Virus record (IMG/VR): IMGVR_UViG_3300036852_000183
Location: 1-36,438 of that record
Direction: 5' to 3' (one strand)
Source of the DNA: a virus
Length of the DNA: 36,438 bases
Positions 2,977 to 36,438 of the stretch are shown here, piece by piece. The translations under genes and the position numbers were made by a program. Below the pieces are notes generated by a model. It did no database searches and was not told where the DNA came from. It worked only from the letters and a program-made list of their open reading frames with translations. Position 1 is the first letter of the stretch. Each line of letters begins with the position of its first letter.

Positions 2977-3390
2977 ATGGCGGCATCGATTGAAATTCCA
3001 GGCGTTGACTTCGGAGCCATCGCCCGCGAGGTCGTCGCAATCAAGCTGACGGAGTCTCTCGCGACATCGCCTGACGGCATCAAAGCGATCGTGCTCGCGG
3101 CGCTTGGGCAAAAGGTCAAGGCCGACAACGGCCAGGAACCGCGGTCGTACGACACGAACACGGTGTCATGGGTCGAGTACGTCGCGGCCGACATGATCCG
3201 CTCAGCCACGAAGGAAGTTCTGGCCGATCAGGTGGAGAAAATGCGCCCGAGGCTCGTAAAGGCTGTCGAAGAGGCGCTCAAAAAGAACACGACCACGATC
3301 GCTGCATCGCTGGTGGATACGTATGCCAACGAGGCCAAGAACGGCTACCGCCTCTTTGTGTCCATGCAGTTCGCGAAGCACGAGAGATAG
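2977..3390 (+). CDS. Hypothetical early phage protein
   Basis: A 137-aa, mostly helical, charge-rich protein with no motif I can name. The ATG directly follows the CII-like stop and has an AAAGG-type SD. Repeated Ala/Val helices and a mid-region KVKADNGQEPRSYDTNTVSW are visible. Confidence 0.6.
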   Translation: MAASIEIPGVDFGAIAREVVAIKLTESLATSPDGIKAIVLAALGQKVKADNGQEPRSYDTNTVSWVEYVAADMIRSATKEVLADQVEKMRPRLVKAVEEALKKNTTTIAASLVDTYANEAKNGYRLFVSMQFAKHER

Positions 3391-3395
3391 TCGCC

Positions 3396-3656
3396 ATGAA
3401 CTTCGACGACTACATCTCGCGCGATCCGATGGACGGCCAATGGCACCGCCACGCCGAGCGGCCAGAGCCGGAGCCGAGACGCGAGCCCTGCCGCTACTGC
3501 GTGAGTGGCGATCAGCAGATGCCGTGGCCCCCAGAGGCGCCCTCGATGCTGAAGTGTCGGATCTGCGGTGATACGCACGCGCTGCGCGAGGTGAGCGGAG
3601 ACGAACTACGCGCGGCCTTTGCGGGCATGGCGCTCTTGAAAGGAAAACAGCGATGA
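3396..3656 (+). CDS. Small zinc-ribbon protein
   Basis: An 86-aa protein with paired C-x2-C knuckles (CRYC in the middle, CRIC about 27 residues later), consistent with one zinc ribbon. The ATG was chosen because it begins just past the previous stop, and the frame ends in an ATGA overlap with the next gene. No catalytic motif is seen. Confidence 0.6.
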   Translation: MNFDDYISRDPMDGQWHRHAERPEPEPRREPCRYCVSGDQQMPWPPEAPSMLKCRICGDTHALREVSGDELRAAFAGMALLKGKQR

Positions 3657-4006
3657 AGTTGTCGGAAGCGATTCGGTTGGGCGCGATGTTGAGGCCGCAG
3701 GGGACGGATGTGTTCTTCGCCTTTGGCAAGTCGTGCGCGCTCGGCGCCGCGTCCGAAGCTATCGGGCTTCAGCAGCCGCGCTTTCAGCCGTACGCGGACA
3801 TTGTGGCAGCGTTCCCTATTCTCGCTGAAGGATCGCATGAGTGTCCGGACTGCGGCGAAGTAAAAGGTGAACTTGGCTACCTAGTAACACACCTGAACGA
3901 CATTCACCGCTGGACCCGCGAGTGCATCGCCGATCGGGTCGCCGCCATCGAAGACGCCGAAGCCGCCAAGGCGGAGTCGCCTGTGGCCGCTGAGGTCACC
4001 GCGTAG
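3653..4006 (+). CDS. Hypothetical protein with a C2H2-like finger
   Basis: A 117-aa protein. Residues about 63-85 (CPDCGEVKGELGYLVTHLNDIH) give a C-x2-C...H-x4-H zinc-finger-like pattern, preceded by an N-terminal region rich in Ala and Phe and followed by a Glu/Ala-rich tail. AAGGAAAACAGCG before the ATG supplies an SD. It could bind DNA or RNA; the function is unknown. Confidence 0.6.
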   Translation: MKLSEAIRLGAMLRPQGTDVFFAFGKSCALGAASEAIGLQQPRFQPYADIVAAFPILAEGSHECPDCGEVKGELGYLVTHLNDIHRWTRECIADRVAAIEDAEAAKAESPVAAEVTA

Positions 4007-4008
4007 CC

Positions 4009-4095
4009 ATGACGGGCGTGCTGCTGCTGGTCGCGATTGTCGTAGGGATGGGCGGGGTGGCGTGGCTGTGGGAACGCAAGGGGTGGCGGATATGA
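4009..4095 (+). CDS. 28-aa membrane microprotein
   Basis: MTGVLLLVAIVVGMGGVAWL then WERKGWRI: one transmembrane helix with a basic tail. It starts two bases after the upstream stop and ends in an ATGA overlap with another membrane microprotein. The tight packing and clear hydrophobic design argue that it is translated. Confidence 0.5.
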   Translation: MTGVLLLVAIVVGMGGVAWLWERKGWRI

Positions 4096-4244
4096 CCGCC
4101 GTCTACGTGTTGGCGATGCTGGTGGGGCTGGTGGCTTGGTGGCTGTCGCAGAAGCTGGCGTGGGAGTCGATGCAGGCGCCGACCCTGGTCCAGCAATGGC
4201 GGAAAGTCTGGGCGGCTCCGGTCATCAAGGTGAGGGTGAAATGA
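4092..4244 (+). CDS. 50-aa single-pass membrane protein
   Basis: An N-terminal hydrophobic helix (MTAVYVLAMLVGLVAWWL) and a basic C-terminus ending KVRVK. The ATG at 4092 overlaps the stop of the 28-aa membrane peptide; an earlier in-frame GTG exists but would overlap it fully. It forms a tandem pair with its neighbour and ends overlapping the next gene (ATGA). Confidence 0.5.
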   Translation: MTAVYVLAMLVGLVAWWLSQKLAWESMQAPTLVQQWRKVWAAPVIKVRVK

Positions 4245-4459
4245 GCGACATCGAAATGGAAGCGGTGCGGCCGAAGTTCATCAAGGACCATCACCTCACG
4301 TTCTTGGACGATTTGCGCTCGTCAGGCGCAACGAACATGTACGGCGCGGCTCCGTACATTCAAGCCGCCTATCGCATGCCAAGAGATAAAGCTGTCGCAA
4401 CTCTCATGTATTGGATGCAGACGTTTAGTCAGCGGCATCCTGAGAAGGCTGCGAAATGA
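4241..4459 (+). CDS. Conserved small phage protein (LRxSGxTNM type)
   Basis: A 72-aa protein containing LTFLDDLRSSGATNMYGAAP and DKAVATLMYWMQTFSQRHP. From memory this pattern, an LDxLRxSGxTNMxGA core and a terminal KYWMxTF-like helix, recurs in many phage hypothetical proteins in early regions. Function unknown. Confidence 0.65.
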   Translation: MSDIEMEAVRPKFIKDHHLTFLDDLRSSGATNMYGAAPYIQAAYRMPRDKAVATLMYWMQTFSQRHPEKAAK

Positions 4460-4530
4460 CACCGCGCGAATTCCTCGATTCGCTCGGTGCGGCGCTCCAC
4501 GACATGCGCGTAGTGGCGGGTGAAGCATGA
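4456..4530 (+). CDS. 24-aa partial copy of the gene at 4738
   Basis: MTPREFLDSLGAALHDMRVV aligns without gaps to the N-terminus of the protein at 4738 (MTRLEFLVAIDQALHEMRVI), with about 12 identities in 21 positions. It then stops in an ATGA overlap with a truncated HNH frame. It looks like the remnant of a duplicated gene interrupted after its first exon-like 60 bp, or a minimal retained copy. Translation is plausible from the coupled overlaps at both ends. Confidence 0.5.
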   Translation: MTPREFLDSLGAALHDMRVVAGEA

Positions 4531-4751
4531 GGGCGGGATGGCAACCGCGTGGCCTGCCGTTTGAGTCTCGCCACTCAGTTGATGCGGCTACTGGATGCTG
4601 GAACTGGACTGGTTGTGTTGACCCGCGCGGGCACGGCCGTATCAGTATCAATGGCCGGGTGTTGCTCGCGCGTCGGGTCGCCTACGAACGATCGCGCGGC
4701 GTGTCAGAGCAGCGAATCGCGCGATGGCGGAGGCGTCATGACACGCCTTGA
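4527..4751 (+). pseudogene. Truncated HNH homing-type endonuclease
   Basis: Residues about 17-58 carry the N-terminal signature of HNH homing-type nucleases (TGCWNWTG, then GRISINGR and ARRVAYERSRG). In intact members this is followed by the His/Asn-containing metal site and often a DNA-binding AP2-type domain. Here the frame drifts into an Arg-rich end and stops after 74 aa, so the catalytic HNH is missing. It lies between a 24-aa copy and a full copy of one gene, suggesting that endonuclease insertion and later decay shaped the locus. Confidence 0.6.
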
Positions 4752-4998
4752 ATTCCTAGTGGCCATAGACCAAGCGCTTCACGAAATGAGGGTTATAGCT
4801 GTTCCGAACTACAGCGCCACGGATTATGTGTGCGTCTGCTCGTGTGATTTTGAGCATGTGCCAGTCACGACACAGGCCGAGGCGCAGGCGCAAGTGCTCG
4901 CGGGCTGCCCCATCGCGCAGTTAGAGGCGGCTGGGGCGCGTCGGAAGGCGGCGCGGCTGGCCATGGACTTGGGCGTAACGGTGAAGAGGAGCGCCTAA
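4738..4998 (+). CDS. Hypothetical protein, full copy of a duplicated family
   Basis: An 86-aa protein starting MTRLEFLVAIDQALHEMRVI; the ATG at 4738 was chosen because the same start is preserved in the shorter relative at 4456. The middle has CVCSCDFEHVP (possible metal-binding cysteines) and the end a helical Ala/Arg-rich region. Function unknown. Confidence 0.55.
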   Translation: MTRLEFLVAIDQALHEMRVIAVPNYSATDYVCVCSCDFEHVPVTTQAEAQAQVLAGCPIAQLEAAGARRKAARLAMDLGVTVKRSA

Positions 4999-5057
4999 GA
5001 GGTACCGGCCTCGCTCTGGTGAGACAGGGCGGGGCCGGGTGGACAACGAGGTATGGC

Positions 5058-5294
5058 ATGGGCATTTTAGCAGAAGCGGCGAAGTTAGCGCACGAGAAAC
5101 AGGCGGCTGAGCGGCACGCCTCACGGCGCAGGGTATCCACCTGGGGCGAGTTCGTGGCGGCCATCGAGGCGCACGGCGTCACGGATGGCACCGAGCTGCG
5201 GAGCATCGCCGACATGGCCTTTCCCTGCGTGGTGCGAGTGACACACGAGGACATCAACGCGCCCTTCGGGATTGACATCGGAGAGAGGCACTAG
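5058..5294 (+). CDS. Hypothetical protein upstream of the Sak4-like ATPase
   Basis: A 78-aa protein, helical at the N-terminus (AEAAKLAHEKQAAERHA), with WGEFVAAIEAHGVTDGTELRSI after it. GAGG about 6 nt before the ATG at 5058 decides the start over an upstream in-frame GTG. It ends immediately before the ATPase gene and is likely co-translated with it. Confidence 0.6.
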   Translation: MGILAEAAKLAHEKQAAERHASRRRVSTWGEFVAAIEAHGVTDGTELRSIADMAFPCVVRVTHEDINAPFGIDIGERH

Positions 5295-6362
5295 ATGGCT
5301 GGATTCCAGAAAGCGAAGGCGGAGCAGGCCGCGATCAAGATGGGCATCTACGGCCCGCCCGGGGCTGGCAAGACGTTCACGTCGCTGCTCTTGGCTGAGG
5401 GCCTAGCGGCGCTGTCCTGGAAGCGGATTGCCTACGTCGATACCGAGCACGGCACCGACTTCTACTGCAAGGCGGTCAAGAGCCGAGCCGTGCATCCAGA
5501 GGCGTTCGACTTCGATGCCATCTATACCCGGAGCATCACGGACGTGATCGCGGCCGTGAACGGCCTGAAGCCTGCCGACCACGGCGTGATCGTGCTCGAC
5601 TCGATCACGCATCTGTGGGAAGCCGCGATGGCCGCCTACCGTGGCCCGCGCACCAAGACGGGCGGGATTCCGATCACGGCGTGGGGACGGATCAAGAAGC
5701 CCTACAAGGATCTGATGTCCTACCTGCTGTCGTCGCCGATGCACGTCATTATCTGCGGCCGGCAAGGGCTCATCTACGAAGAGAACGCGGAGACGGGCGA
5801 GTCGGCGGTGGTCGGCGTGAAGATGAAGGCGGAGGGCGAGACGCCCTACGAGCCGCACATTCTGATCCGGATGGAGTCCGAGCGCGGCAAGCCCAACGAG
5901 ATCGCCAGCATCATCGCCTACGCCGAAAAGGACCGCACGGGCGTCCTCTCTGGGCGTTCGTTCGTCAACCCGACCTACGCCTCCATCTGTGCGCCGATCG
6001 TGGGCCTACTGGGCGGCACGCAAGCCCAGATCGCCACGGAGGACGAGGCGTCAACCGTAGATGCTGAAGTGTTGGAGCGCCAGGAGCGGGAGCGCGCATC
6101 GGAATCGGCGGATGTGCTCCGGCGCATGTCGGCCCGGATCGACCTCGCGCCCACCGTTGAAGACCTGAAGGCGATCGGCAAGGAGATCACGCCCAAGCTC
6201 AAGGCGTCGATGCTGCCGGCTGACGTCGTGCGGCTGCGAGCGAAATACGCCGAGCGTGACGCCTCGCTGAAGTCGGGTGTTCCTGCGAAGCCGGCGCCGA
6301 CCGATGCCGAACTGGATGCCGAGATCGCGGCCAAGGATGGCGAGACGCTCGGAGCCTTCTGA
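5295..6362 (+). CDS. Sak4-like RecA-fold ATPase (phage recombination)
   Basis: A 355-aa P-loop NTPase of the AAA_24 / Sak4 type, RecA-like ATPases that assist phage-encoded single-strand annealing recombination. Walker A is GPPGAGKT at residues 20-27; Walker B is VIVLDS with D102, followed by ITHLWE. The core ends near residue 240, and a charged helical tail (about 250-355) may bind partners. The next genes (NinB/Orf-like, HNH, methylase, DUF1064) form a coherent recombination and DNA-processing operon. The fold is firm; the exact recombination role is inferred. Confidence 0.85.
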   Translation: MAGFQKAKAEQAAIKMGIYGPPGAGKTFTSLLLAEGLAALSWKRIAYVDTEHGTDFYCKAVKSRAVHPEAFDFDAIYTRSITDVIAAVNGLKPADHGVIVLDSITHLWEAAMAAYRGPRTKTGGIPITAWGRIKKPYKDLMSYLLSSPMHVIICGRQGLIYEENAETGESAVVGVKMKAEGETPYEPHILIRMESERGKPNEIASIIAYAEKDRTGVLSGRSFVNPTYASICAPIVGLLGGTQAQIATEDEASTVDAEVLERQERERASESADVLRRMSARIDLAPTVEDLKAIGKEITPKLKASMLPADVVRLRAKYAERDASLKSGVPAKPAPTDAELDAEIAAKDGETLGAF

Positions 6363-6490
6363 TGAACCGCCCCTACCAGCTTCCTGTGTGGCCGACCGAT
6401 CCGCTCCCGTTGGGCGCCAGTGCTTATGCGCTGCACTCGGCGAGTTGGTGGCGCGCGGTGACCAAGGCCACATTGGAGGCGCGGCGGTGA
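6362..6490 (+). CDS. 42-aa hypothetical protein
   Basis: The ATG overlaps the ATPase stop (TGATG), and its own stop overlaps the next GTG start (GTGA). The peptide is Pro/Trp-rich (LPVWPTDPLPLG, then SASWWRAVTKAT). The coupled junctions at both ends are the main evidence for a real gene; no function is recognised. Confidence 0.5.
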   Translation: MNRPYQLPVWPTDPLPLGASAYALHSASWWRAVTKATLEARR

Positions 6491-6876
6491 GAGACGACGT
6501 CAAGCTTGGAGATGTCTGGTTCCGCTATGAGGACGGCCCGGCGCACTACTTCGGATGGCCGTTTGAGCCAGACCAATACGAGGTGGTGAAGGTGACGCCG
6601 TGTGGATGCCGTGTGCGGTTCAGTAAGGGCAGCTTCAGTATAGGCCGCGATCGGTTCGTGCTCATCGGTGCGCGGAAGCAGTACGCATGGCCAACGGCCG
6701 CTGAAGCTCTGGAGTCCTACCGGGCGAGGAAGCGTAAGCAGATCCGGATCTATTCCGCCAAGTTGGCAGAGGCGCGAAGGTGTCTCGCGGTGGCGGGCGA
6801 GACGTACGAGTTCAAAGGGTTCTCGTGGGTATCCGCGCCTGTCACGGCGGAGAAGGCAAGCGAGGTTGGCGCATGA
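6487..6876 (+). CDS. Hypothetical phage protein
   Basis: A 129-aa protein with an N-terminal beta-rich part (VKLGDVWFRYEDGPAHYFGW, then VVKVTPCGCRVRFSKGSF) and a basic helical middle (ESYRARKRKQIRIYSAKLAEARR). The GTG at 6487 is chosen for its overlap with the preceding stop. The first part looks like a small SH3-like barrel, but that is only an impression. Confidence 0.55.
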   Translation: MRDDVKLGDVWFRYEDGPAHYFGWPFEPDQYEVVKVTPCGCRVRFSKGSFSIGRDRFVLIGARKQYAWPTAAEALESYRARKRKQIRIYSAKLAEARRCLAVAGETYEFKGFSWVSAPVTAEKASEVGA

Positions 6877-7295
6877 AGAAGAAGCCCAAGGGCGAGCATG
6901 TCGCCAACGTCGATGGCACATGGGACGGCCGCAAGGTCGTCCTGGATAGCGATGATCACTACCGCCGCGAAGTGGCTAGGCTCGAGCTCGGCGTCGGCGA
7001 GCGCGTCACGGTCACGGTTGGTCGCCCTGAGGACATGCGGAAGCTCTGGCAGCTCCGCCACCTGATGGGTCACATCTACGAGCCAGTCGCGTCGTTCGAC
7101 AACTGCGGGCACACGAAGCTGGAACTGCACGCGATGGCGAAGGCGATGTTCATGCCGGACGGCAAGACATCGACGCGCGAGCTGACCTACGAAGAGATGG
7201 ACGAGTTCTGCAAGCACGCGGAGCGATGGCTGCGGACGGACATGCCGGAGGCGTTTGTGGACTTCGATGCGCGACAGATGGGGCTGGCGTCATGA
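6873..7295 (+). CDS. NinB/Orf-like recombination mediator candidate
   Basis: A 140-aa protein. The pattern of a charged N-terminal beta region (VVLDSDDHYRREVARL), MRKLWQLRHLMGHIYE, an ELHAMAKAMFM helix and STRELTYEEMDEFCKHAERW resembles NinB/Orf-family proteins and related phage proteins found beside Sak4 ATPases. Those proteins bind ssDNA or SSB and help load recombinases. The match is by recalled pattern, so the family assignment is moderate. The ATG overlaps the previous stop. Confidence 0.5.
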   Translation: MKKKPKGEHVANVDGTWDGRKVVLDSDDHYRREVARLELGVGERVTVTVGRPEDMRKLWQLRHLMGHIYEPVASFDNCGHTKLELHAMAKAMFMPDGKTSTRELTYEEMDEFCKHAERWLRTDMPEAFVDFDARQMGLAS

Positions 7296-7486
7296 CCTGG
7301 CGTGTCCGACTCGCGCGGTTCATTCTCCGGTCTGATCCGGACTGGATGGTCTGCCTCACCTCAGACTACTGCGCGTTCATTCGCCTGTTGGTGGAAGAGG
7401 ACAAGGTGCGGTCGATCATCGCGCAGCATGCCCAGTTGGGGCCGGTGCTGGACCTGCTGCCGCGGAAGCCGGAGACGAGGCACTAG
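7292..7486 (+). CDS. Small hypothetical protein
   Basis: 64 aa with MTWRVRLARFILRSDPDWMV at the start, then a charged helix (FIRLLVEEDKVRSIIAQHAQL). The amphipathic N-terminus could be membrane-associated. ATG chosen by the ATGA overlap with the upstream gene. Confidence 0.5.
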   Translation: MTWRVRLARFILRSDPDWMVCLTSDYCAFIRLLVEEDKVRSIIAQHAQLGPVLDLLPRKPETRH

Positions 7487-7888
7487 ATGCCAAACGGCTC
7501 GATGTTTAAAGCGGATATGCCGTCTCGCGTTGAGACGAAGCGCATGCGGAAAGCGGAAGAGATGGCGCAATGGCGTGCCGTCTGTAAGCAAGTCGATACG
7601 CGCGATCGCGGGCGGTGTCGTGCATGCGGACGGCGGTGCGATCCCAACGCGCTTGGCCTTCTTGAGCGAGCGGAGCGCCATCACATCGTGTATCTGAGTG
7701 CGGGTGGCGAGGACATCGACCACAACGTCGTGACTCTCTGTGCAGGCTGCCACGCCGACCAACACGCCGGTCGGATGGACGTACGCGGGAATGCCAGGGC
7801 CGGGATCGAAGTCTGGCTGCGTGACGACGACGGCGCCTGGTTTCTCTCACGGCGGGAAGTGATGCCGCATGTAGTGGAGAAGGACTGA
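7487..7888 (+). CDS. HNH endonuclease
   Basis: A 133-aa HNH-family nuclease. Residues C44 and C47 with C85 and C88 form the structural zinc knuckles (CRAC ... CAGC). HH at 65-66, N80 and H89/H93 supply the beta-beta-alpha metal site (ERHHIVYL, then DHNVVTLCAGCHADQH). It lies in the recombination block between the Orf-like protein and the methyltransferase, so a NinG-like junction or DNA-processing role is possible. Free-standing homing activity cannot be excluded. Confidence 0.85.
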   Translation: MPNGSMFKADMPSRVETKRMRKAEEMAQWRAVCKQVDTRDRGRCRACGRRCDPNALGLLERAERHHIVYLSAGGEDIDHNVVTLCAGCHADQHAGRMDVRGNARAGIEVWLRDDDGAWFLSRREVMPHVVEKD

Positions 7889-8130
7889 TGACGCAAGCCT
7901 CGATCAATTTCGATCAGCCCGCCGAGACCATGACGGCCGCGGTGGCGCAGTTCTTCCGGCTGAATGCCGGCGTCTGGATCTCAGCGCTGGATGTGATGCG
8001 GGTAGGCGGCGCGCTGGCGTGGCGGACCGAAATCAGCCGCTGTCGCAAGGCGCCGTACCTCATGACGATCGAGAACCGCACGCGGCGTGTCGGTCGGAAG
8101 CTGTATAGCGAATACAGGTTGGTGCCATGA
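7888..8130 (+). CDS. Small winged-helix-like protein
   Basis: 80 aa. Residues about 16-60 (AAVAQFFRLNAGVWISALDV, then GGALAWRTEISRCRK) look like a compact winged-helix domain, a type common among phage small proteins, ending in YRLVP. TGATG overlap at the start and ATGA at the end place it inside the coupled operon. Function unknown. Confidence 0.55.
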   Translation: MTQASINFDQPAETMTAAVAQFFRLNAGVWISALDVMRVGGALAWRTEISRCRKAPYLMTIENRTRRVGRKLYSEYRLVP

Positions 8131-8333
8131 GCGGGCGCAACGGCTGGAAAAAGATCCCCATGCCCGGCCCGCCTGCCGCGCTGCCCAATGTGCTGCGCGC
8201 GCCTGCGGGCTCCTGGTGGATTGACGCGCAACTGAAACCGCGTGAGCAGTTCTACGCGGAGGCGGCCCGCTACGAGCACCACATGCAGGTGCGGGGCGTG
8301 AGCGCTGACCAGCTCGTCTGGCGGGACAAGTGA
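8127..8333 (+). CDS. Hypothetical protein before the methyltransferase
   Basis: 68 aa, Pro-rich N-terminus (IPMPGPPAALPNV) and a helix with REQFYAEAARYEHHMQV. Its stop overlaps the GTG start of the methyltransferase (GTGA). No motif is recognised. Confidence 0.5.
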   Translation: MSGRNGWKKIPMPGPPAALPNVLRAPAGSWWIDAQLKPREQFYAEAARYEHHMQVRGVSADQLVWRDK

Positions 8334-9202
8334 CGAGGCGGAATAGCGACGGCATCGTGTTGCCAGAGGCGGTGCCAGATGAGCGCAGCTACGACGAGCG
8401 GCAGATCGCCCATGCGCCAAAGCCATTCAGCATCTACTACCAGGACGATGCGGTGACGCTATACCACGGCGATTGCCTCGACGTGCTGCCAACGCTGCCG
8501 AAGGAATCCGCCGACATCGTGTGGACAGACCCGCCATATGGCCACAACAACAATGATGGGGATCTGATCCACCGGTGGGAAGCTGCCCTCGGCCAGCTAC
8601 CCTCCGGTGAGACTCCACCGGTGGGTCGTCCGATTGCCAACGACGGCGCCGACGACATGCGCCGAGTGGTGGACGGCGCCCTCACGGAGTGCGCCCGCAT
8701 TCTCAAGCGCGACTGCTGCTGCTGCTGCTGCGGCGGCGGCGGCCCGAAGCCGACCTTCGCGTGGTTGGCCGAGCGCATGGATCGCGGCGGGCTGTCGTTC
8801 TTCCATTCCGTCATCTGGGACAAGGGCGGACTTGGGATGGGCTGGCGGTATCGCCGGAATCACGAAATGGTCATGGTGGCCCACCGCAAGGGCGGGAAGT
8901 TGAAGTGGGAATGGCAAGGGAAAGGCCCTGAGACGGCGAACGTCGTCCGGATAGGGAAGGTCATCCCCACGGCCGATGACCACCCTACGCCCAAGCCTGA
9001 GGCCCTGGTGCGGCATTTCCTCATGCTTCACGGCAAGCCTGGCGATCTGGTGGTCGATCCGTTTGCCGGCCATGGCGTCACTCTCCGAGTGGCCAAGGAT
9101 CTCGGTCTGCGAGCTATCGGGATCGAGATTGACGAAGAGCACTGCAAGGCGACGGTCGAGCGGATGCGTCAGGGCTCGCTCTTTGGGGCTGGTGCGGCAT
9201 GA
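8330..9202 (+). CDS. DNA methyltransferase, beta-class N4-cytosine/N6-adenine type
   Basis: A 290-aa MTase. The catalytic motif DPPY is at residues 67-70 and precedes the SAM-binding region HPTPKPEAL (218-226) and DPFAGHG (243-249), the motif order of the beta class. Between them is an unusual run of six Cys and four Gly (129-138) encoded by pure TGC and GGC repeats at 8714-8743. The enzyme probably modifies phage DNA to evade host restriction; no cognate nuclease is adjacent, so it is an orphan. GTG start chosen by GTGA overlap. Confidence 0.88.
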   Translation: MTRRNSDGIVLPEAVPDERSYDERQIAHAPKPFSIYYQDDAVTLYHGDCLDVLPTLPKESADIVWTDPPYGHNNNDGDLIHRWEAALGQLPSGETPPVGRPIANDGADDMRRVVDGALTECARILKRDCCCCCCGGGGPKPTFAWLAERMDRGGLSFFHSVIWDKGGLGMGWRYRRNHEMVMVAHRKGGKLKWEWQGKGPETANVVRIGKVIPTADDHPTPKPEALVRHFLMLHGKPGDLVVDPFAGHGVTLRVAKDLGLRAIGIEIDEEHCKATVERMRQGSLFGAGAA

Positions 9203-9543
9203 GACTCCGCAGCTCGAAGTACAGCGCGAAGCGCACCGAAGTAGACGGCGTTGTGTTCCATAGCCAGAAGGAAGCGCGGCGGTACCAGGAACTGAAGCTG
9301 CTGCTGGCTGCTGGGGCGATTGAATGCCTTGCGCTGCAACCTGAGTTCGATCTCGACGTGATAGGTGGGCAAGTGAAAGACGTGAGGTACCGCATTGGCG
9401 GGTACAAGGCGGACTTTCAGTACATCGATAGGCGCACTGGCAAGCGAATCGTCGAGGACGTGAAGGGCTTCAAGACGCCGCTCTACAAGTGGAAGAAGAA
9501 ACACGTCGAGGCCCAGTATGGAATCACGATCCTCGAAACCTAA
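9199..9543 (+). CDS. DUF1064 phage nuclease-like protein
   Basis: A 114-aa DUF1064 family protein: SKYSAKRTEVDGVVFHSQKE, LQPEFDLDV, a DFQYIDRRTG strand and IVEDVKGFKT. E25, D72 and E86/D87/K89 resemble a PD-(D/E)xK nuclease active site. Family members occur in phage replication/recombination blocks and are thought to act as endonucleases, possibly on branched DNA. The family is firm; the substrate is inferred. Confidence 0.8.
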   Translation: MRLRSSKYSAKRTEVDGVVFHSQKEARRYQELKLLLAAGAIECLALQPEFDLDVIGGQVKDVRYRIGGYKADFQYIDRRTGKRIVEDVKGFKTPLYKWKKKHVEAQYGITILET

Positions 9544-9561
9544 GTGGGCGGAGGTGCAGAC

Positions 9562-9999
9562 GTGGGCGGCGTAAGCCGGGAACCGCAGACGACTGCCGTT
9601 GAGCGACTTAAGTACAACTGCGATCGTTTCGCGTTAAGCCATGGCGCGCAGATTCGTTGGCGGCGCGTCCTACTTGCCGATCCGTGTGCGTATTGTGGCG
9701 AGCGCGCCGATGCCGTTGATCATATCGCTCCGCGGATTCGCGGAGGTCGGAACGACTGGAGAAACTATGCGCCCAGTTGCGGGCCTTGCAATTCGATGAA
9801 GGGGAAAGGGTCGCTCGCGTGGATGATCTGGCGGAGTCACGAACTCAGGAACGGACGCGCTCTCCTGAGGCCTGTCAGCCACCGTGTCGTAAACGGTGAG
9901 CGCATCGTGACCGGCTGGATGTGGGTGTATCAGGGTCACCACAGAATGACTCGCGAAGGTGGCACGAAAGACACGGATTTATTGAGAGAAAGAGCTTGA
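9562..9999 (+). CDS. HNH endonuclease
   Basis: 145 aa from the GTG at 9562, chosen because GGAGG lies 7 nt upstream; a longer frame starts at 9544 with no SD. CAYC (42-45) and CGPC (73-76) are the zinc knuckles, D53-H54 with N68 and N77/K80 the metal site (AVDHIAPRIRGGRND, then NYAPSCGPCNSMKG). It is the last gene of the recombination block. It could serve DNA processing or be a solitary homing nuclease. Confidence 0.8.
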   Translation: MGGVSREPQTTAVERLKYNCDRFALSHGAQIRWRRVLLADPCAYCGERADAVDHIAPRIRGGRNDWRNYAPSCGPCNSMKGKGSLAWMIWRSHELRNGRALLRPVSHRVVNGERIVTGWMWVYQGHHRMTREGGTKDTDLLRERA

Positions 10000-10000
10000 A

Positions 10001-10141
10001 ATGAGGGTTGAGGTTGGTGGAGAATTGGGCATCGGGAACCGCGCGTCAACGCGGCCCCGACACCACTTCGCCACACTGGACGGAACCCAGGTGCAGCGCG
10101 ATCCGAGATCGTCGCACATTCCTTTCAGGTTGACCAAGTGA
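10001..10141 (+). CDS. Possible 46-aa protein
   Basis: The ATG is one base past the HNH stop, with GAGAAAGAG upstream as a possible SD. The peptide is basic (RVEVGGELGIGNRASTRPRH, ending PFRLTK). A further GTG frame (10138-10218) overlaps its stop by GTGA, and another ATGA follows at 10215, so it may begin a chain of tiny coupled ORFs. Equally, the region could be non-coding. Confidence 0.3.
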   Translation: MRVEVGGELGIGNRASTRPRHHFATLDGTQVQRDPRSSHIPFRLTK

Positions 10142-10148
10142 ACGCTTT

Positions 10149-10173
10149 TGGTGTTGGGCGTCGACCAATACCA
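10149..10173 (+). ncRNA. Stable RNA hairpin candidate
   Basis: TGGTGTTGG (10149-10157) pairs with CCAATACCA (10165-10173) over nine base pairs, one of them a G-U, closing the 7-nt loop GCGTCGA. The G-U allows the stem only in plus-strand RNA. No T-run follows, so it is not an intrinsic terminator; a regulatory element or part of a longer RNA is more likely. Confidence 0.35.
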
Positions 10174-10371
10174 CACGCGAGCTACGTGCGGTTCCGCAGG
10201 GTATCGCGGCCACGATGAGCCGAGCCTGATGTCCAGGCAGAAGCGGCGGCGCGGTTGACGGCAACGCGCGGGTCCGGCGACAGATCAGTGCGGGCGGGAT
10301 TGTGTGTGTCAGAGCAAAAGGCCGGGCGCTGCTGAGGAGCAACCCGGGACCGCAGAGGACGCTGACGCATC

Positions 10372-10427
10372 CGGTTCTCACGGCAAGACTGCGGGAGTGC
10401 GCGCACCACGGCGCATGACGAGAACCG
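10372..10427. repeat. Nested inverted repeat
   Basis: Outer arms CGGTTCTC (10372-10379) and GAGAACCG (10420-10427) are exact 8-mers. Inside them TGCGC (10398-10402) pairs with GCGCA (10411-10415). In GC-rich DNA this may be chance, but it adds to the structural signal of the gene-poor stretch. Confidence 0.3.
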
Positions 10428-10542
10428 CCGCACTTCGGGCTACGACGGAGACGCTGACGTTGTAGGAGCGATAGGCACAGAGGCTGCGCAGCATTCTACG
10501 GAACTGCGGGAGTAAACCGTGGTCCGCAAGAAAGAAGGAACG

Positions 10543-10797
10543 ATGGCGACGGACGAACAGAGGCGGAATCTCTTGCACGACATGGTGATGGGCGTCCTTG
10601 AGCGTGCGGAGACGTTGGAGATCGGTACCGTCGCGCAGCATCTGGAGGACATCTTCGAGCGCATGTATGACGGGTGCGCGCAGTGCGATGGATTGTTCTC
10701 CGAGACAGGCGGCCGTCCCGTGTGCCAGCGGTGCTATGTGAATAACGGTGGTGGGCAGCAACAAAAACGGACGGGGAGCGGCAATGGGGCCAGCTAA
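10543..10797 (+). CDS. Zinc-knuckle protein, possibly truncated by TAA
   Basis: 84 aa from the ATG at 10543 (AAGGA 3 nt before it). A helical N-terminus (NLLHDMVMGVLERAETLEI) is followed by CAQC and CQRC knuckles. The frame ends at TAA 10795-10797, yet the same frame stays open for 43 more codons with coding-like composition and ends at a TGA overlapping the next start. The TAA may therefore be a recent nonsense change. Confidence 0.5.
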   Translation: MATDEQRRNLLHDMVMGVLERAETLEIGTVAQHLEDIFERMYDGCAQCDGLFSETGGRPVCQRCYVNNGGGQQQKRTGSGNGAS

Positions 10798-10929
10798 CTA
10801 GCCGAGAAGGAACGGCAGGCTGGGGAGGCGCAGCACGGCGTAGACAAGTCGAGCAAGCTGAGCGCCACGCCGGACACAGAGGGGCCGCCGGGCGGACGAG
10901 AGGCAAGGCCGCCAGTTGATTGGATCTGA
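10798..10929 (+). pseudogene. In-frame continuation of the 10543 gene past TAA
   Basis: 43 sense codons (AEKERQAGEAQHGVDKSSKL onward, ending RPPVDWI) continue in the frame of the upstream gene after its TAA, with mostly G/C third positions. The TGA at 10927-10929 overlaps the ATG of the XRE gene as TGATG, the junction style of true genes here. This is best explained as the severed C-terminal part of one gene; stop-codon readthrough or a separate start are alternatives. Confidence 0.4.
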
Positions 10930-11153
10930 TGATGAGCCATGTGCGTAAGTTTAAAGACGGTGCGTGTGTGACCTGTGGCGCCACCAAGGTGGTCGTCAAT
11001 GGCGCGTGGCTACGTCAGCGCCGTTTAGGCGCTGGGTTGAAGCTCAAGGATATGGCGAGCCGTCTCGGTCATGGCGTTGCCTACCTCAGCGACATAGAGC
11101 TCGATAGGCGCAATTGCTCACCACGAGTTCGCGCCGCCTATGAGGCGCTGTAA
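10929..11153 (+). CDS. XRE helix-turn-helix protein with N-terminal CxxC
   Basis: 74 aa (ATG 10929; ATG 10932 is also possible). After a CVTCGAT knuckle comes GAWLRQRRLGAGLKLKDMAS, then YLSDIELDRRNCSPRV, a clear Cro/C1-type HTH. TAATG overlap at its end couples it to the next gene. It is probably an accessory transcriptional regulator. Confidence 0.65.
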   Translation: MMSHVRKFKDGACVTCGATKVVVNGAWLRQRRLGAGLKLKDMASRLGHGVAYLSDIELDRRNCSPRVRAAYEAL

Positions 11154-11434
11154 TGGATGATGCGAAGCACGAGCTACTAACCTTAATCGACTGGCTACAC
11201 ACGCACGCGGTGCGCCATATCGCCGGCAGTACGCCGAAGTCAGCCGTGCGGCGTCTGGCTTGCGACGTTCACGAAGCAGCGGGTCGTCTTCATCAGCTCG
11301 CACTGGACGCGATGGGAACAGGAGCGACGTCGAATGGACTGCTGGACATTCAGCGCAAACTCGGCGTCGGGACTGCCACGGCGATGGAAATCCAAGAAGT
11401 TCTGAATCGAAGGAGTGTGCGTGATGGGCGCTGA
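11153..11434 (+). CDS. Hypothetical helical protein
   Basis: 93 aa, mainly helical (HELLTLIDWLHTHAVRHI, VRRLACDVHEAAGRLHQLAL), ending GVGTATAMEIQEVLNRRS. The ATG overlaps the XRE stop as TAATG. No family is recognised. Confidence 0.5.
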   Translation: MDDAKHELLTLIDWLHTHAVRHIAGSTPKSAVRRLACDVHEAAGRLHQLALDAMGTGATSNGLLDIQRKLGVGTATAMEIQEVLNRRSVRDGR

Positions 11435-11786
11435 TGGATCGCAGAGTCGAGGCGGAGGTCGAATCTATTCGAACGAGCTGGTGTCAGAGCCAGCGGCGAA
11501 GCAGGTGGAAAGGTTTCCGCGTGGGCGAGACGTGCGCGACCACCACTGCGGCAACCCGGAGTGTGAAGCGTGCGATGCGCAGCAGCCAGAGACAGAGGCG
11601 GAACTGTTGCGGCGCGATCTGGATTTTGCGCGAGCCGTCATTCATCGTCTCGAAAAAGATTGCTACGCACTGCAGGAGGCATTGCGCGGCATCCTTGAGA
11701 TCGGCAAGCGCGACATGTCGAACCCGAAATACGACGGCTATTTCGAGGTGGCGAAGAAGGTGATCGGTGAGATCAGAGGCTTGTAG
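11424..11786 (+). CDS. Hypothetical protein with a Cys/His cluster and coiled coil
   Basis: 120 aa from ATG 11424, chosen because AGGAG is 8 nt upstream. A Cys/His patch (DHHCGNPECEACDA) is followed by a coiled-coil-like helix (ETEAELLRRDLDFARAVIHR). From memory, similar architectures occur in phage accessory proteins of the Ead/Ea22 kind. Another frame at 11434 is a shadow. Confidence 0.5.
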   Translation: MGADGSQSRGGGRIYSNELVSEPAAKQVERFPRGRDVRDHHCGNPECEACDAQQPETEAELLRRDLDFARAVIHRLEKDCYALQEALRGILEIGKRDMSNPKYDGYFEVAKKVIGEIRGL

Positions 11787-12173
11787 ATGTCCAAGCGCGC
11801 TGGCTACATCATGGTCGATGAAGACGACGCTGACTTCAAAGCGTTCTGGAACGCGGTGCCATTACGCACCGCGAAGAAGGACGCGAGGCGTGCGTGGGCC
11901 GCGCTGAACCCATCACCGGAGCTCGTGCAAGCTATTCTTGATGCGCTGGCCTGGCAAACGCCGATGTGGGCACGGCAAGGCTACGGAGCGCCGTACCCAG
12001 CCACCTACTTGAACGGTGAGCGCTGGACCGACGAATGCCCATCACACCTGAAGCCACGAGAGGAATGGCACTGTCCCCACGTCCAGCACTGCAACGGTCA
12101 GCACCAGTGCCGTCTCCTCCTCTCGGTGGATCCGGAGGGGACGAGATACACCCAATGCAGAAAGGCTGGCTAG
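11787..12173 (+). CDS. Replisome-organiser C-terminal-like protein
   Basis: 128 aa. Residues about 19-85 (FKAFWNAVPLRTAKKDARRA, AILDALAWQ, ATYLNGERW) match the module found at the C-terminus of many phage replication initiators and DnaT-like proteins, typically FWxxYPRKxxKxxAxxAW ... PATYLNGxRW. Here it stands alone and is followed by a Cys/His segment (CPHVQHCNGQHQC, then YTQC). It may contact a host helicase loader, but without the usual N-terminal HTH its role is uncertain. Confidence 0.6.
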   Translation: MSKRAGYIMVDEDDADFKAFWNAVPLRTAKKDARRAWAALNPSPELVQAILDALAWQTPMWARQGYGAPYPATYLNGERWTDECPSHLKPREEWHCPHVQHCNGQHQCRLLLSVDPEGTRYTQCRKAG

Positions 12174-12180
12174 TTCGAAC

Positions 12181-12369
12181 ATGACGCGGAAGCCGACGCA
12201 GCTTGCCAAAATGTTGGTCCTCTGGCGTGCCGTCAATAATGTGACGTTACGGAGCTTAGGGAAGCAGACGGGTATCTCGCACGCCACGCTCATGCGAATC
12301 GAGCACGGCTACGCGATGGACCTTGAGACGTGGAGGCGGTTGGAGAATTGGTTACTGGCGAGCTCTTGA
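12181..12369 (+). CDS. Small XRE regulator upstream of an internal promoter
   Basis: 62 aa HTH protein: LAKMLVLWRAVNNVTLRSLG, then KQTGISHATLMRIEHGYAMD. It is almost only the DNA-binding domain, like Cro. Its stop codon TGA is part of the -35 box of the following promoter, and a 12-bp palindrome lies in that promoter's spacer, so it is a natural candidate to bind there. Confidence 0.65.
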   Translation: MTRKPTQLAKMLVLWRAVNNVTLRSLGKQTGISHATLMRIEHGYAMDLETWRRLENWLLASS

Positions 12370-32274: not shown

Positions 32275-33105
32275 ATGGCACTTGAGGATCCATACGACCC
32301 GCAAGACCCGCAAGACCCGTTGACCGCGCCCGCTCGGGACCGGAACGCGCTGAGAAGCCGCGCCAAGTCGCTCTATGGGAATTCGTGGGACGCCGACGCC
32401 GAGCAGCAGTTTAACTCTCGGTTCGATCAGAACCAGTCCGACGAAGACCTGCTCGCGCACACGGGTGAGGACTACCGTGCGAGGTTTCCGAGTGGTGGGG
32501 GCGCGGCGCCGCAGGGGACGAGTCAGTACAGCTCTGGACAGGCGGGGTCCGGAGATGCGGCCCTCTCGTCCTTCATGGACTACATCAAGACCCGTGACTC
32601 CGCATCACAACAGCAGCAAGCGGCACTCCGCGAGATCCTAATGGGGCAATTGGGCCAAGCCACGTCCCCGCTCGACGCGAATGCGCCCGGGATCCGCGAG
32701 GTCTTGGCCGGCCAGCGTCTTGGCCTCCAGCGGGGGGCGGAACGGAAGTTGGCGGACTCGGCGGAGCTGAGGGCGTATGACGGCTCTGGTGGTGTCGGCG
32801 GGAAGGCCTACACCCAGGACCGCGATCGAATCCTCCAGGGGCAGGCGGAGTCCGACGCCCAGATGACCGGCGACGTCTTGAACAGAGAGCTCCAGCAGAA
32901 GCGCGATCAAGTCACGCGCATGCTGGCGCTGGCGACGCAGCTTGGGGATGCGGAAAGCGCGCGGCTGCTGCAAGCCCAGTTGAATTCGATTCAGACGCAA
33001 CTGAGTCAGTCGAACTTCTACGACCAAAGCGCGTTCAATTACGCGCAGTTGAACCAGCAAGGGAATCAGAACACCTTGCTCTCGCTCTTGGGGGCACTCT
33101 CATGA
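32275..33105 (+). CDS. Ejection-type internal virion protein 1
   Basis: 276 aa. A short repeat at the N-terminus (DPYDPQDPQDP), Gln/Ser/Ala-rich disordered stretches, and long helices (LQQKRDQVTRMLALATQLGD, SARLLQAQLNSIQTQLSQSN). This matches pilot/ejection proteins packed in podovirus heads and released into the host envelope. First of three such genes in a row. Confidence 0.55.
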   Translation: MALEDPYDPQDPQDPLTAPARDRNALRSRAKSLYGNSWDADAEQQFNSRFDQNQSDEDLLAHTGEDYRARFPSGGGAAPQGTSQYSSGQAGSGDAALSSFMDYIKTRDSASQQQQAALREILMGQLGQATSPLDANAPGIREVLAGQRLGLQRGAERKLADSAELRAYDGSGGVGGKAYTQDRDRILQGQAESDAQMTGDVLNRELQQKRDQVTRMLALATQLGDAESARLLQAQLNSIQTQLSQSNFYDQSAFNYAQLNQQGNQNTLLSLLGALS

Positions 33106-33731
33106 GCTTCCTTTCTGGCCTCGGAAAGATTCTGTCGATCGCTGGGCCGATCGCCGCGGCGCCCTTCACGGGTGGAAGCAGCTTGCTCGGCCTGATGGGC
33201 GCTGGCGCGGGGACAGCGGCGGCCATCGGGGGCGGGGTTGGCGCGCTGGGTGGCGTGCTGAGCGGCGCATCCAAAGGCTCCGCCGATCAGCGACTCCAAG
33301 AGAATCAGGGCATTCTGTCGCAGCAGGGCCTGAATCTCCAAGGGGCACGTGATCAGTACAACGCGGGGCTCAGTGGGGCGCAGTTTCAGCAGCAGGAGCA
33401 GGATCGTCAGCGGAAAGCCGCGATCCTCTCGGCACTCCTGAAGGGGACGCAGGACCAAACCATCACGCCTGGCAATCCAATGATCGCCTCACGGATGCCC
33501 CAGGTCAGTGGTGGGGCGCGGCCGTCGAATCTGACCGGGAATGCGGCGGCCTTACTGCAACTGCTTGCGGGTGGGCCGATTCAGGCGCCCCAGTACCAGG
33601 CCCCTGGCGCCATGCCGATCAAGAACGCGGGTCTCGGTGAAAAGATCCTCGGTGGAGCCGGGCTCGGCACGTCGATTCTCGGCGCCTTGGGGCCACTGGT
33701 GAAGAAGCCTCAGCCGCAGGTGAATCTCTAA
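33102..33731 (+). CDS. Ejection-type internal virion protein 2
   Basis: 209 aa. The N-terminal 60 residues are hydrophobic and Gly/Ala-zipper-like (FTGGSSLLGLMGAGAGTAAA, IGGGVGALGGVLSG), suited to membrane insertion. A Gln-rich coil and another Gly-rich segment (GAGLGTSILGALGPLV) follow. This is characteristic of ejection proteins that help form a trans-envelope channel. Confidence 0.55.
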   Translation: MSFLSGLGKILSIAGPIAAAPFTGGSSLLGLMGAGAGTAAAIGGGVGALGGVLSGASKGSADQRLQENQGILSQQGLNLQGARDQYNAGLSGAQFQQQEQDRQRKAAILSALLKGTQDQTITPGNPMIASRMPQVSGGARPSNLTGNAAALLQLLAGGPIQAPQYQAPGAMPIKNAGLGEKILGGAGLGTSILGALGPLVKKPQPQVNL

Positions 33732-34774
33732 TGGGTCTCTCCGGCGCGGCCTCCGGAGCGAGCAACGCGCTGCAGGAGATTCTGGCGCGGGCGTTTGCGG
33801 AGAAGCAGGCCCAAGCGCAGCTGGCCCTCCAACAGCAGGCGCTGCAGCAGCGCACAGACGCGGACCAACAGGATCGCAATCTGCGGATCAGGAACTTTGA
33901 CGCCGACGAGCAGTATCGTCAAGGTCAAGTCGCACGCCAAGGCCGGCAGGATGACGTGGCGGCGACGGAACGCCGGCAGGCCGAGAATCAGCGCGGCGTG
34001 CGTCGGATGATTGGGGACTTCCTGGTGCAGCGCGGCGCCACCCCGTTGGATACTGGCGCACGACAGACACTGCAGGGGATGGCTATCCAAGAGGATGTGG
34101 ATCTGCCGAAGCAGATCGCGGACGACCCGACGGCTGCCAATGCCGAATGGGAACGCCGACAGGGCATCGAGCACAAGAACCGCCTCGGAGAAATCGGCGC
34201 GACGACCGCTGGGCAGGAGCGCGTGGCGCGCGTGCGCGCGGACGAGACGCGTCAGACGCAGGCCGCGAAGGCGTCGTTGGGGGCTACGACTGGGGCCGGG
34301 AATGAGTACAGCACGGAGCGGGCGCAGCGCACAATTCAGGACGTGGACGAAGTGATCCCGATGATCAACAGCCGCACGTCAGGATTTGGGAGCGTGCTCT
34401 CTAGTGTCCCCGGCACGGATGCGCGGCGCGTGGCTGGGAAACTCAAGACGTTGTCGGCCAATATCGCCTTCAACGAACTCACGGCCATGAGGAACGCCAG
34501 CAAGACCGGTGGGGCTTTGGGTGCGGTGTCAGATCGAGAGGCCCAGCTGCTCACCAATTCGCTCGGCGCGATCGATCAGGGGCTGGACGGAGCGGATCTC
34601 GTGGCTGAGCTGAACAAGATCAAGGAGAGCGTCAACCGGTGGGAGCAGGCCCGTAAAACGGCCGGTGTGACTGGAGCGCCTGCGATGGCGACGAGTCATG
34701 CCCCATCGCAGGCGGCGCCAACGGTTCAGAAGTGGGGTCGCGATGCACAGGGACGACCTGTGCCGATCAAGTAG
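33731..34774 (+). CDS. Ejection-type internal virion protein 3
   Basis: 347 aa, almost wholly helical: Gln-rich coiled coil at 15-95, charged helices, then a compact part (VDEVIPMINSRTSGFGSVLS, NIAFNELTAMRNASKTGGAL, SDREAQLLTNSLGAID). I recall this last segment from internal-virion proteins. TAATG start. The function is by family resemblance and order. Confidence 0.6.
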   Translation: MGLSGAASGASNALQEILARAFAEKQAQAQLALQQQALQQRTDADQQDRNLRIRNFDADEQYRQGQVARQGRQDDVAATERRQAENQRGVRRMIGDFLVQRGATPLDTGARQTLQGMAIQEDVDLPKQIADDPTAANAEWERRQGIEHKNRLGEIGATTAGQERVARVRADETRQTQAAKASLGATTGAGNEYSTERAQRTIQDVDEVIPMINSRTSGFGSVLSSVPGTDARRVAGKLKTLSANIAFNELTAMRNASKTGGALGAVSDREAQLLTNSLGAIDQGLDGADLVAELNKIKESVNRWEQARKTAGVTGAPAMATSHAPSQAAPTVQKWGRDAQGRPVPIK

Positions 34775-35992
34775 ATGCCGAAGTCGATCGAATTTGACGG
34801 CGTCGTCCACGAGTTTCCGGACGATTTCACCGACGCGGACATTGCCGCGGCGTTGACGCAGGTGTCTCCGCAGGCCAGCCACGGCCAGTCTGGCGAAACG
34901 CCCGCCCAGATGGTCAACGTCGGCGGACGTGGGACCGGCCTTGATCTTCGCCTGTCTCGGCGACGATCGGCGGATGCGCTGCCCACTATTGGTGGCGGTG
35001 TCGGCGCGGCGCTCGGTGGGCTGACGTCGCCTGTCACTGGCCCGGTTGGGCCGGCTGTCGGTGCGGCGCTCGGCGGCGGGGCTGGGACGGCGCTGCGGTC
35101 GATGGTGCGTGGCGAGTCACCGAATGCCAACGAGGTGATTGATAGCGGACTCGGCCAAGGCGCGCTCCAAGCGGTGACACCACTGGGGACTGCGGCGGCG
35201 AAGGGGCTCTATAAGGGCGGTGTGGCGCTCTTGCCGAAGGGGATCAAGCAAGCCTTCCCCAATCTTGCTGAGACTGGATTCCGTGAAGGCGTGGCGCTGA
35301 CACGACGCGGAGCGGAGAAGGCGGAACGCGCCATTGGCGAATCGGCCGGAACGGCGGACGCGATGATCGCATCCGCCCAGGCTGGCGGGGCGAAGCCGAT
35401 TGCGCCGATTGAAGTGTTGCGCGAACTTCGGCCGGTGGGTCAGAAGATCCGCACGCAAGAAGGACTCGGGTTGCCCAGTGAGATGCCGGCTCTGATGACG
35501 CGGGCGAAATCCTTTATGGGGCGTGGCCCGCTGGATCTCCAGCAAGCGCAGGCGCTCAAGAAGGAAGCCCAGGATCTCGCGACGACCGCGTACAAGGCCC
35601 GTGACAAGGGCGCCGTGATCAACAGCATCGAGGCCCTGACGAATGAAGGGCAGGCGAGAGGGTTACGGAAGGGGCTGGAGTCGCGCGTGCCTGGGCTCGG
35701 TGACGTGAACGCGCGCACACAGTCACTGATCGGCGTCCGTGACGCAGCCGAGCACGCCAGCCAGACCGGGCATGTGCTGCCGCGCGTGCTCGGCGCGATC
35801 GGCCTTGGTGGCGCGGCGGGTCCTGCGGGTATGGCCCCGGCGGCGTTAGCGGCTGGTGTCGGCGGAACGATGACGACACCCGGGGGATTGACGGCAACGG
35901 GATTGGCGTTGAAGCCGATCGCGGCCCATCTGCCGAGTGCGACACGGATCGCGTTGCTCTTGAGCCTACTGGGTCAGGAGCAGGAGCAGTAA
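34775..35992 (+). CDS. Large virion/ejection protein with FDG-HxFP N-terminus
   Basis: 405 aa. SIEFDGVVHEFPDDFTDADI at the N-terminus is a short module found on many phage ejection and internal virion proteins. Gly/Ala-rich hydrophobic segments (IGGGVGAALGGLTSPVTGPV, AVGAALGGGAGTAL) and a helical C-terminal half follow, ending in a hydrophobic tail (RIALLLSLLG, then QEQEQ). Likely the last ejection protein of the cluster. Confidence 0.6.
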   Translation: MPKSIEFDGVVHEFPDDFTDADIAAALTQVSPQASHGQSGETPAQMVNVGGRGTGLDLRLSRRRSADALPTIGGGVGAALGGLTSPVTGPVGPAVGAALGGGAGTALRSMVRGESPNANEVIDSGLGQGALQAVTPLGTAAAKGLYKGGVALLPKGIKQAFPNLAETGFREGVALTRRGAEKAERAIGESAGTADAMIASAQAGGAKPIAPIEVLRELRPVGQKIRTQEGLGLPSEMPALMTRAKSFMGRGPLDLQQAQALKKEAQDLATTAYKARDKGAVINSIEALTNEGQARGLRKGLESRVPGLGDVNARTQSLIGVRDAAEHASQTGHVLPRVLGAIGLGGAAGPAGMAPAALAAGVGGTMTTPGGLTATGLALKPIAAHLPSATRIALLLSLLGQEQEQ

Positions 35993-36079
35993 GACGATGA
36001 GCAGGACGCCGATCACGACCACGCCGTGCCCGATGTCGCGCACGTTGTGCTCGAGGCGTTCCCAGCGCTTCTCGTCCAC
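35966..36079 (-). CDS. Minus-strand membrane microprotein candidate
   Basis: 37 aa from GTG: DEKRWERLEHNVRDIGHG forms an amphipathic, charged helix, then VVVIGVLLIVLLLLLLTQ a transmembrane segment. This is the design of XhlA-type holin-associated proteins. It overlaps the end of the ejection gene on the opposite strand and has only a weak SD. The fit of both halves is unusually good for chance, but antisense GC-rich DNA can mimic hydrophobic helices. Confidence 0.35.
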   Translation of the reverse strand: MDEKRWERLEHNVRDIGHGVVVIGVLLIVLLLLLLTQ

Positions 36080-36093
36080 GCTGAAAGCCTAGC

Positions 36094-36186
36094 ATGAGCG
36101 AGGCGGATCGGAAGGAATTGGAAATTGCCATTCGGGTGCTCGCGAAAGAAGTCGAGCGCCTGAAGAGGTTGCTCGAAAAGTCGTAA
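36094..36186 (+). CDS. 30-aa coiled-coil microprotein
   Basis: MSEADRKELEIAIRVLAKEV, then ERLKRLLEKS: a single amphipathic heptad helix with Leu/Ile/Val at a/d-like positions. No strong SD. Likely a small oligomerising peptide in the late region. A 31-aa plus-strand frame at 35997-36092 is less convincing. Confidence 0.4.
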   Translation: MSEADRKELEIAIRVLAKEVERLKRLLEKS

Positions 36187-36289
36187 ACTACAGTCGAGTT
36201 CTGGCCCGCGCTGACTCTGGCCCGCTTTGGCCGCCCAGGGTCCCTTCCCAACGGGGGACGCCGCCCAGTAGTGACGAAGGAGTCCTGCT
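36187..36289. repeat. Intergenic strip with two direct-repeat pairs
   Basis: TCTGGCCCGC occurs at 36200-36209 and 36216-36225, and GCCGCCCAG at 36230-36238 and 36260-36268. No promoter is clear; an SD (GAAGGAG) for the last gene lies at its end. Confidence 0.4.
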
Positions 36290-36438
36290 ATGCGGCGTGT
36301 CCGATACCTCACCCTGCTCCTGATCGGCCTGCTGGCGATGCCAGCCGCGGCGCAGCAATTCGTTCGTCTGCAATCCACCGCCACGCAGGGTACGATTTCC
36401 GCGAATGGCGGCTATGTCGAACTCACCACGGCCAACGT
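36290..36438 (+). CDS. Secreted or envelope protein, 5' part only
   Basis: ATG 36290 has AAGGAG 8 nt upstream. RRVRYLTLLLIGLLAMPAAA is a Sec signal peptide with basic n-region, Leu-rich h-region and AAA-QQ cleavage site. The mature start (QFVRLQSTATQGTISANGGY) looks beta-structured. The gene is cut by the window end. A signal peptide is unusual for a virion protein; it could be a lysogenic-conversion (moron) product or a periplasmic/lysis factor. Confidence 0.6.
   Translation, partial: MRRVRYLTLLLIGLLAMPAAAQQFVRLQSTATQGTISANGGYVELTTAN

Follow-up and report, generated by a model that had tools for sequence, protein, structure and literature searches.

Between positions 4241 and 4998 of the viral record IMGVR_UViG_3300036852_000183, which was analyzed as one window of 36,438 bp (all positions are those of the window), four plus-strand genes lie tightly packed: a gene of 72 amino acids (aa), an open reading frame (ORF) of 24 aa (4456–4530), a 74-aa ORF resembling the front part of a phage HNH endonuclease (4527–4751), and an 86-aa ORF (4738–4998) that we call X. 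Neighboring genes overlap by 4, 4 and 14 bases, and at both of the 4-base overlaps the stop of one frame meets the start of the next in the sequence ATGA. Since the record carries an integrase, a repressor-like gene, a terminase and a major head protein, it most likely belongs to an uncultured temperate tailed phage. In this operon the truncated HNH ORF stands between two gene starts that resemble each other.

According to the original prediction, the 24-aa ORF and the 86-aa gene at 4738 share their N-termini, and this was borne out at exactly these coordinates: 12 of 21 residues are identical and 16 of 21 are positive (26.9 bits, pairwise E-value 6e-7 without composition correction). In a search of all six reading frames across the window, this match had E 1e-4 if the 24-aa ORF served as query and 0.002 if X did. 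The anchored score of the two starts, 58, was reached by none of 200,000 shuffles of the X N-terminus (maximum 42), and it ranks first among the 29,305 same-strand start pairs that lie 72–600 bp apart, the next best being 39. The pair again came first when all 1,983 starts in the window were paired with one another and scored, with three unrelated pairs at 50–56; without adjacency, the significance of the resemblance is therefore modest, and adjacency carries much of its weight. The significant protein similarity that marks neighbors as a paralogous pair is present for the first 21 residues only, and over the rest of the gene it is lacking (X residues 22–86 against 4456–4737, best E 0.83). The ATG of X at 4738 is preceded by GGAGG, and X sits inside a longer frame of 149 aa that starts at a GTG at 4549.

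The ORF between the two starts is a fragment of an HNH-family gene. It matched five PHROG HNH or endonuclease families at E ≤0.009, the best of which (PHROG 1872, E 1.3e-10) aligns residues 19–60 with profile positions 31–75 of 166, and it retains the conserved region that lies ahead of the catalytic motif in proteins of this type; no Pfam or NCBIfam match was found at E ≤1. A tblastn search of phages with this ORF gave 110 records at E ≤0.01. Eight HNH matches were taken from the best 30 of these records and aligned with the fragment, and seven of the proteins were compared with the window, the Klebsiella HNH protein being omitted as longer and cut by the locus. Six of the seven annotated phage HNH proteins matched the window at E <1e-5, solely within 4557–4703 and by their front part, and all of these matches ended at 4700–4703. 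The REQ3 protein, for which a late start is annotated, gave no match to the window, whereas the DNA that precedes this start in REQ3 did give one. The Sarge protein matches as far as residue 52; its catalytic DHxCxNxxCxNPxHL block (residues 61–75) begins nine residues further on. That block is absent from the HNH ORF and from the forward frames read at 4600–4860, and a frameshift, as opposed to a deletion, was for this reason rejected as the cause of the missing half. The break point falls in the stretch past the end of the HNH homology (4704–4737), which also holds the GGAGG sequence resembling a ribosome site for X. An HNH-type ORF deprived of its catalytic half, as the original prediction had it, thus does lie between the two starts. 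The fragment contains no internal stop, and its 74-aa product would presumably be inactive as a nuclease.

As a yardstick, the Sarge HNH protein was found to match 2,999 phage records, and the alignment covered the catalytic block in all 60 records taken at even steps, although this comparison shows only the best place per record and so gives no count of fragments. A search of solved structures with the HNH alignment returned only I-PpoI (E 0.093), which was not used. At other places in the window, tblastn with the seven phage HNH proteins gave nothing better than weak matches (E 0.16 to 1); the weak matches of two of them at 11436–11774 (E 0.28 and 0.16) are probably due to chance. Two further HNH-family ORFs (7487–7888 and 9544–9999) possess the HNH domain, as indicated by PHROG for both and by Pfam PF01844 for the ORF at 7487. 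These ORFs appear to be of another type, because the relatives of the fragment did not match them at E 1.

The age of the resemblance was judged from the DNA of the two starts, which is identical at 41 of 66 nucleotides. First, second and third codon positions agree in 17, 16 and 8 of 22 cases, respectively, and 14 of 22 third positions differ, versus 11 of 44 at the first two positions combined (Fisher p 0.003). Because of this excess at third positions the divergence looks coding-type, and the two starts seem to have separated while under coding constraint. The near-identical DNA that a recent partial duplication would leave in both copies was not found (41/66 nucleotides overall, 8/22 third positions). 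The content of guanine plus cytosine (G+C) is 49% in the first 24 codons of X (4738–4809), as compared to 66% in the rest of X, 64% in the 24-aa ORF and 63% in the window. The low-G+C start hints that X may be a mosaic gene, and the gap in G+C between the two starts would fit separate histories. The locus had been proposed to preserve a snapshot of invasion, duplication and decay. Part of this proposal stands, namely the degraded HNH gene between homologous starts in a packed operon, whereas duplication in the same recent event is not upheld, both because of the third-position divergence and because X beyond residue 21 has no significant counterpart between the two starts. The link between insertion and duplication is unproven, and the pattern of divergence speaks for an older duplication or for two starts brought together by recombination.

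The reading that we favor, and to which we give an even chance of being right, is that the early operon of a temperate phage here bears a mosaic scar, composed of old homologous starts, an HNH insertion and a later deletion. It rests on the rank of the start pair among the nearby pairs, the codon-position pattern, the PHROG match, the front-only HNH matches with the absent catalytic block, the G+C gap, and the frequency of truncated HNH genes in Skunavirus genomes (PMC12724721). Two homologous small genes would once have been adjacent, either as old tandem paralogs or as a resident copy next to a divergent imported one. A free-standing HNH gene, presumably mobile, would have come to rest behind codon 24 or so of the upstream copy, with its ATG overlapping the present stop codon of the 24-aa ORF. 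The catalytic half of the HNH gene and the remainder of a formerly full first copy would later have been lost through deletion or recombination, to within about 34 bp of the start of X. This event would have spared X, together with its ribosome site, and X would be the working gene.

Several observations weigh against such a scar. The 24-aa ORF has neither a stop nor a frameshift in its 21 homologous codons, while a long-dead remnant would tend to gain these. The codon test covers 22 codons, and since the pair was noticed through its likeness at the protein level, the test is biased in favor of conservation at first and second positions. Near the starts there are runs of 7 and 8 identical bases, and a 25-nt repeat (4451–4475 and 4733–4757; 76% identical) spans both start codons, so that some later exchange between the two starts is possible. 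Lastly, no relative was found in which the site is empty or holds an intact HNH gene, or in which the first copy is complete. The loci compared comprised 24 viral loci reached via the AAA gene at 5295, 8 reached via the gene at 4241, and 3 genome loci. They contained nothing like the two starts at an ungapped score of at least 34, and some of them barely reach into the relevant flank (L002 by 383 bp, L007 by 24 bp and L037 by 5 bp). Locus L002 is from the same virus, with 100% identity over the 7,448 bp compared, and it begins at window position 4912 and so misses the locus; of window positions 3001–5000, only the last 89 bases were found in its record. For the comparison of occupied and empty sites by which a homing endonuclease is recognized, no syntenic relative covering the locus was found. 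With the HNH ORF as query, no close relative was found in viral contigs by a search that reaches close relatives only; more distant relatives do occur in phage records. Neither the gene at 2977 nor that at 3653 had a homolog in the viral contigs.

Among the alternatives, the HNH invasion itself could have duplicated the start of X, after which the enzyme gene decayed in place; the two copies do enclose the fragment exactly, their junctions with it overlap, and the 25-nt repeat across both start codons would suit such an event. We nevertheless consider it unlikely, since the copies are well diverged, yet the match of the HNH part is still at E 1e-10 and its frame has stayed open. One may conversely detach the fragment from the starts altogether and take the 24-aa ORF as a complete, selected micro-protein that shares an N-terminal module with X, the HNH fragment being unrelated debris next to it. 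Coding-type divergence and an intact short frame that overlaps both of its neighbors speak for this reading, but no sign of conservation of the 24-aa sequence was seen beyond the virus of the window: a tblastn search of 50,697 phage records gave no match at E 10, although the shortness of the query makes this a weak test, and in viral contigs there was neither an exact 32-nt match nor a match to a degenerate motif. We are accordingly doubtful of it.

A bolder version, in which the 24-aa ORF would be a working micro-protein of the X N-terminal module, translated just before X and pairing with or titrating it, so that a paralog would have become a built-in regulator of its neighbor through HNH insertion and deletion, seems to us highly improbable. 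It is also very unlikely that the N-terminal resemblance arose by chance and that only the HNH remnant is real. The three unrelated pairs that come close to the score of 58, and the modest E-value (0.002) obtained when X is searched against the whole window, would be in line with chance, but the best competing pair nearby on the same strand scores far lower (39 among 29,305) and not one of the 200,000 shuffles attained the score.

Searches with X yielded little. No relatives were confirmed in viral contigs or in the species-genome collection, both of which were searched by patterns that reach close relatives. In phages there was one match at E 4, the best match in the PDB had E 0.21, and among the PHROGs X matched PHROG 5419 at E 0.054. 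A plasmid match at E 0.1 was taken as chance, as it falls in an unannotated stretch whose frame, when read through, shows no further likeness. The structure predicted for X alone, with a mean predicted local distance difference test (pLDDT) score of 46.9, was too poor to use.

The fragment has familiar counterparts among phage HNH endonucleases of the PHROG 1872, 3593, 826 and 6254 type, six of which are 41–61% identical to its front over 41–53 residues. It differs from the PHROG 1872-type enzymes in lacking the DHxCxNxxCxNPxHL block and all that lies beyond it. Gp34 of Arthrobacter phage Sarge, too, sits between regulator and excise genes. Partial HNH genes like that in the window have been described for lactococcal Skunavirus phages: in 89 genomes, 56 of 268 HNH genes were truncated, which the authors read as remnants of partial deletion, and 39 of these 56 were at one location, H7, among the replication-module locations; 126 of 179 homing endonuclease genes were in the early-expressed region (accessible part of PMC12724721). 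Unlike at the locus described here, a duplicated flanking gene start is not mentioned for the truncated genes in that part of the report. Judging from these frequencies, a truncated HNH gene in a phage early region is ordinary. The HNH remnant at the locus is real but ordinary and most likely amounts to common evolutionary debris, and the broader importance of the locus is small. It shows clearly how a free-standing HNH gene can leave a fragment behind in a temperate phage, within the variable early region. A further suggestion is that repeats on either side of an HNH remnant need not stem from the insertion, since codon-position divergence can indicate an old homologous pair and not a fresh duplication.

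The 72-aa gene upstream (4241–4459, plus strand) encodes a small phage protein with relatives that are 42–53% identical in 8 viral contigs. Downstream in the operon, on the same strand, follow a 78-aa ORF (5058–5294) with a weak match to PHROG 20496 (E 7e-4) and the gene for an AAA ATPase (5295–6362), the conserved anchor gene of the 24 viral loci, which is related to Sak4-like annealing proteins (PHROG 1366, E 8.5e-44; PHROG 124, E 6.9e-18). A promoter and terminator scan found none. A second assembly of the same virus, the viral contig IMGVR_UViG_3300036859_000283 (39,011 bp), was compared over two stretches and is 100% identical to window positions 4912–12359 and 99.97% identical to 32912–36438. 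It begins at window position 4912, inside X, and extends about 7.5 kb beyond the right end of the window, and the window is therefore probably not the whole phage. Further downstream in the window, a DNA methyltransferase gene (8330–9202) is followed by a short ORF (9199–9543) that matches PHROG 190, which is labelled Holliday junction resolvase.
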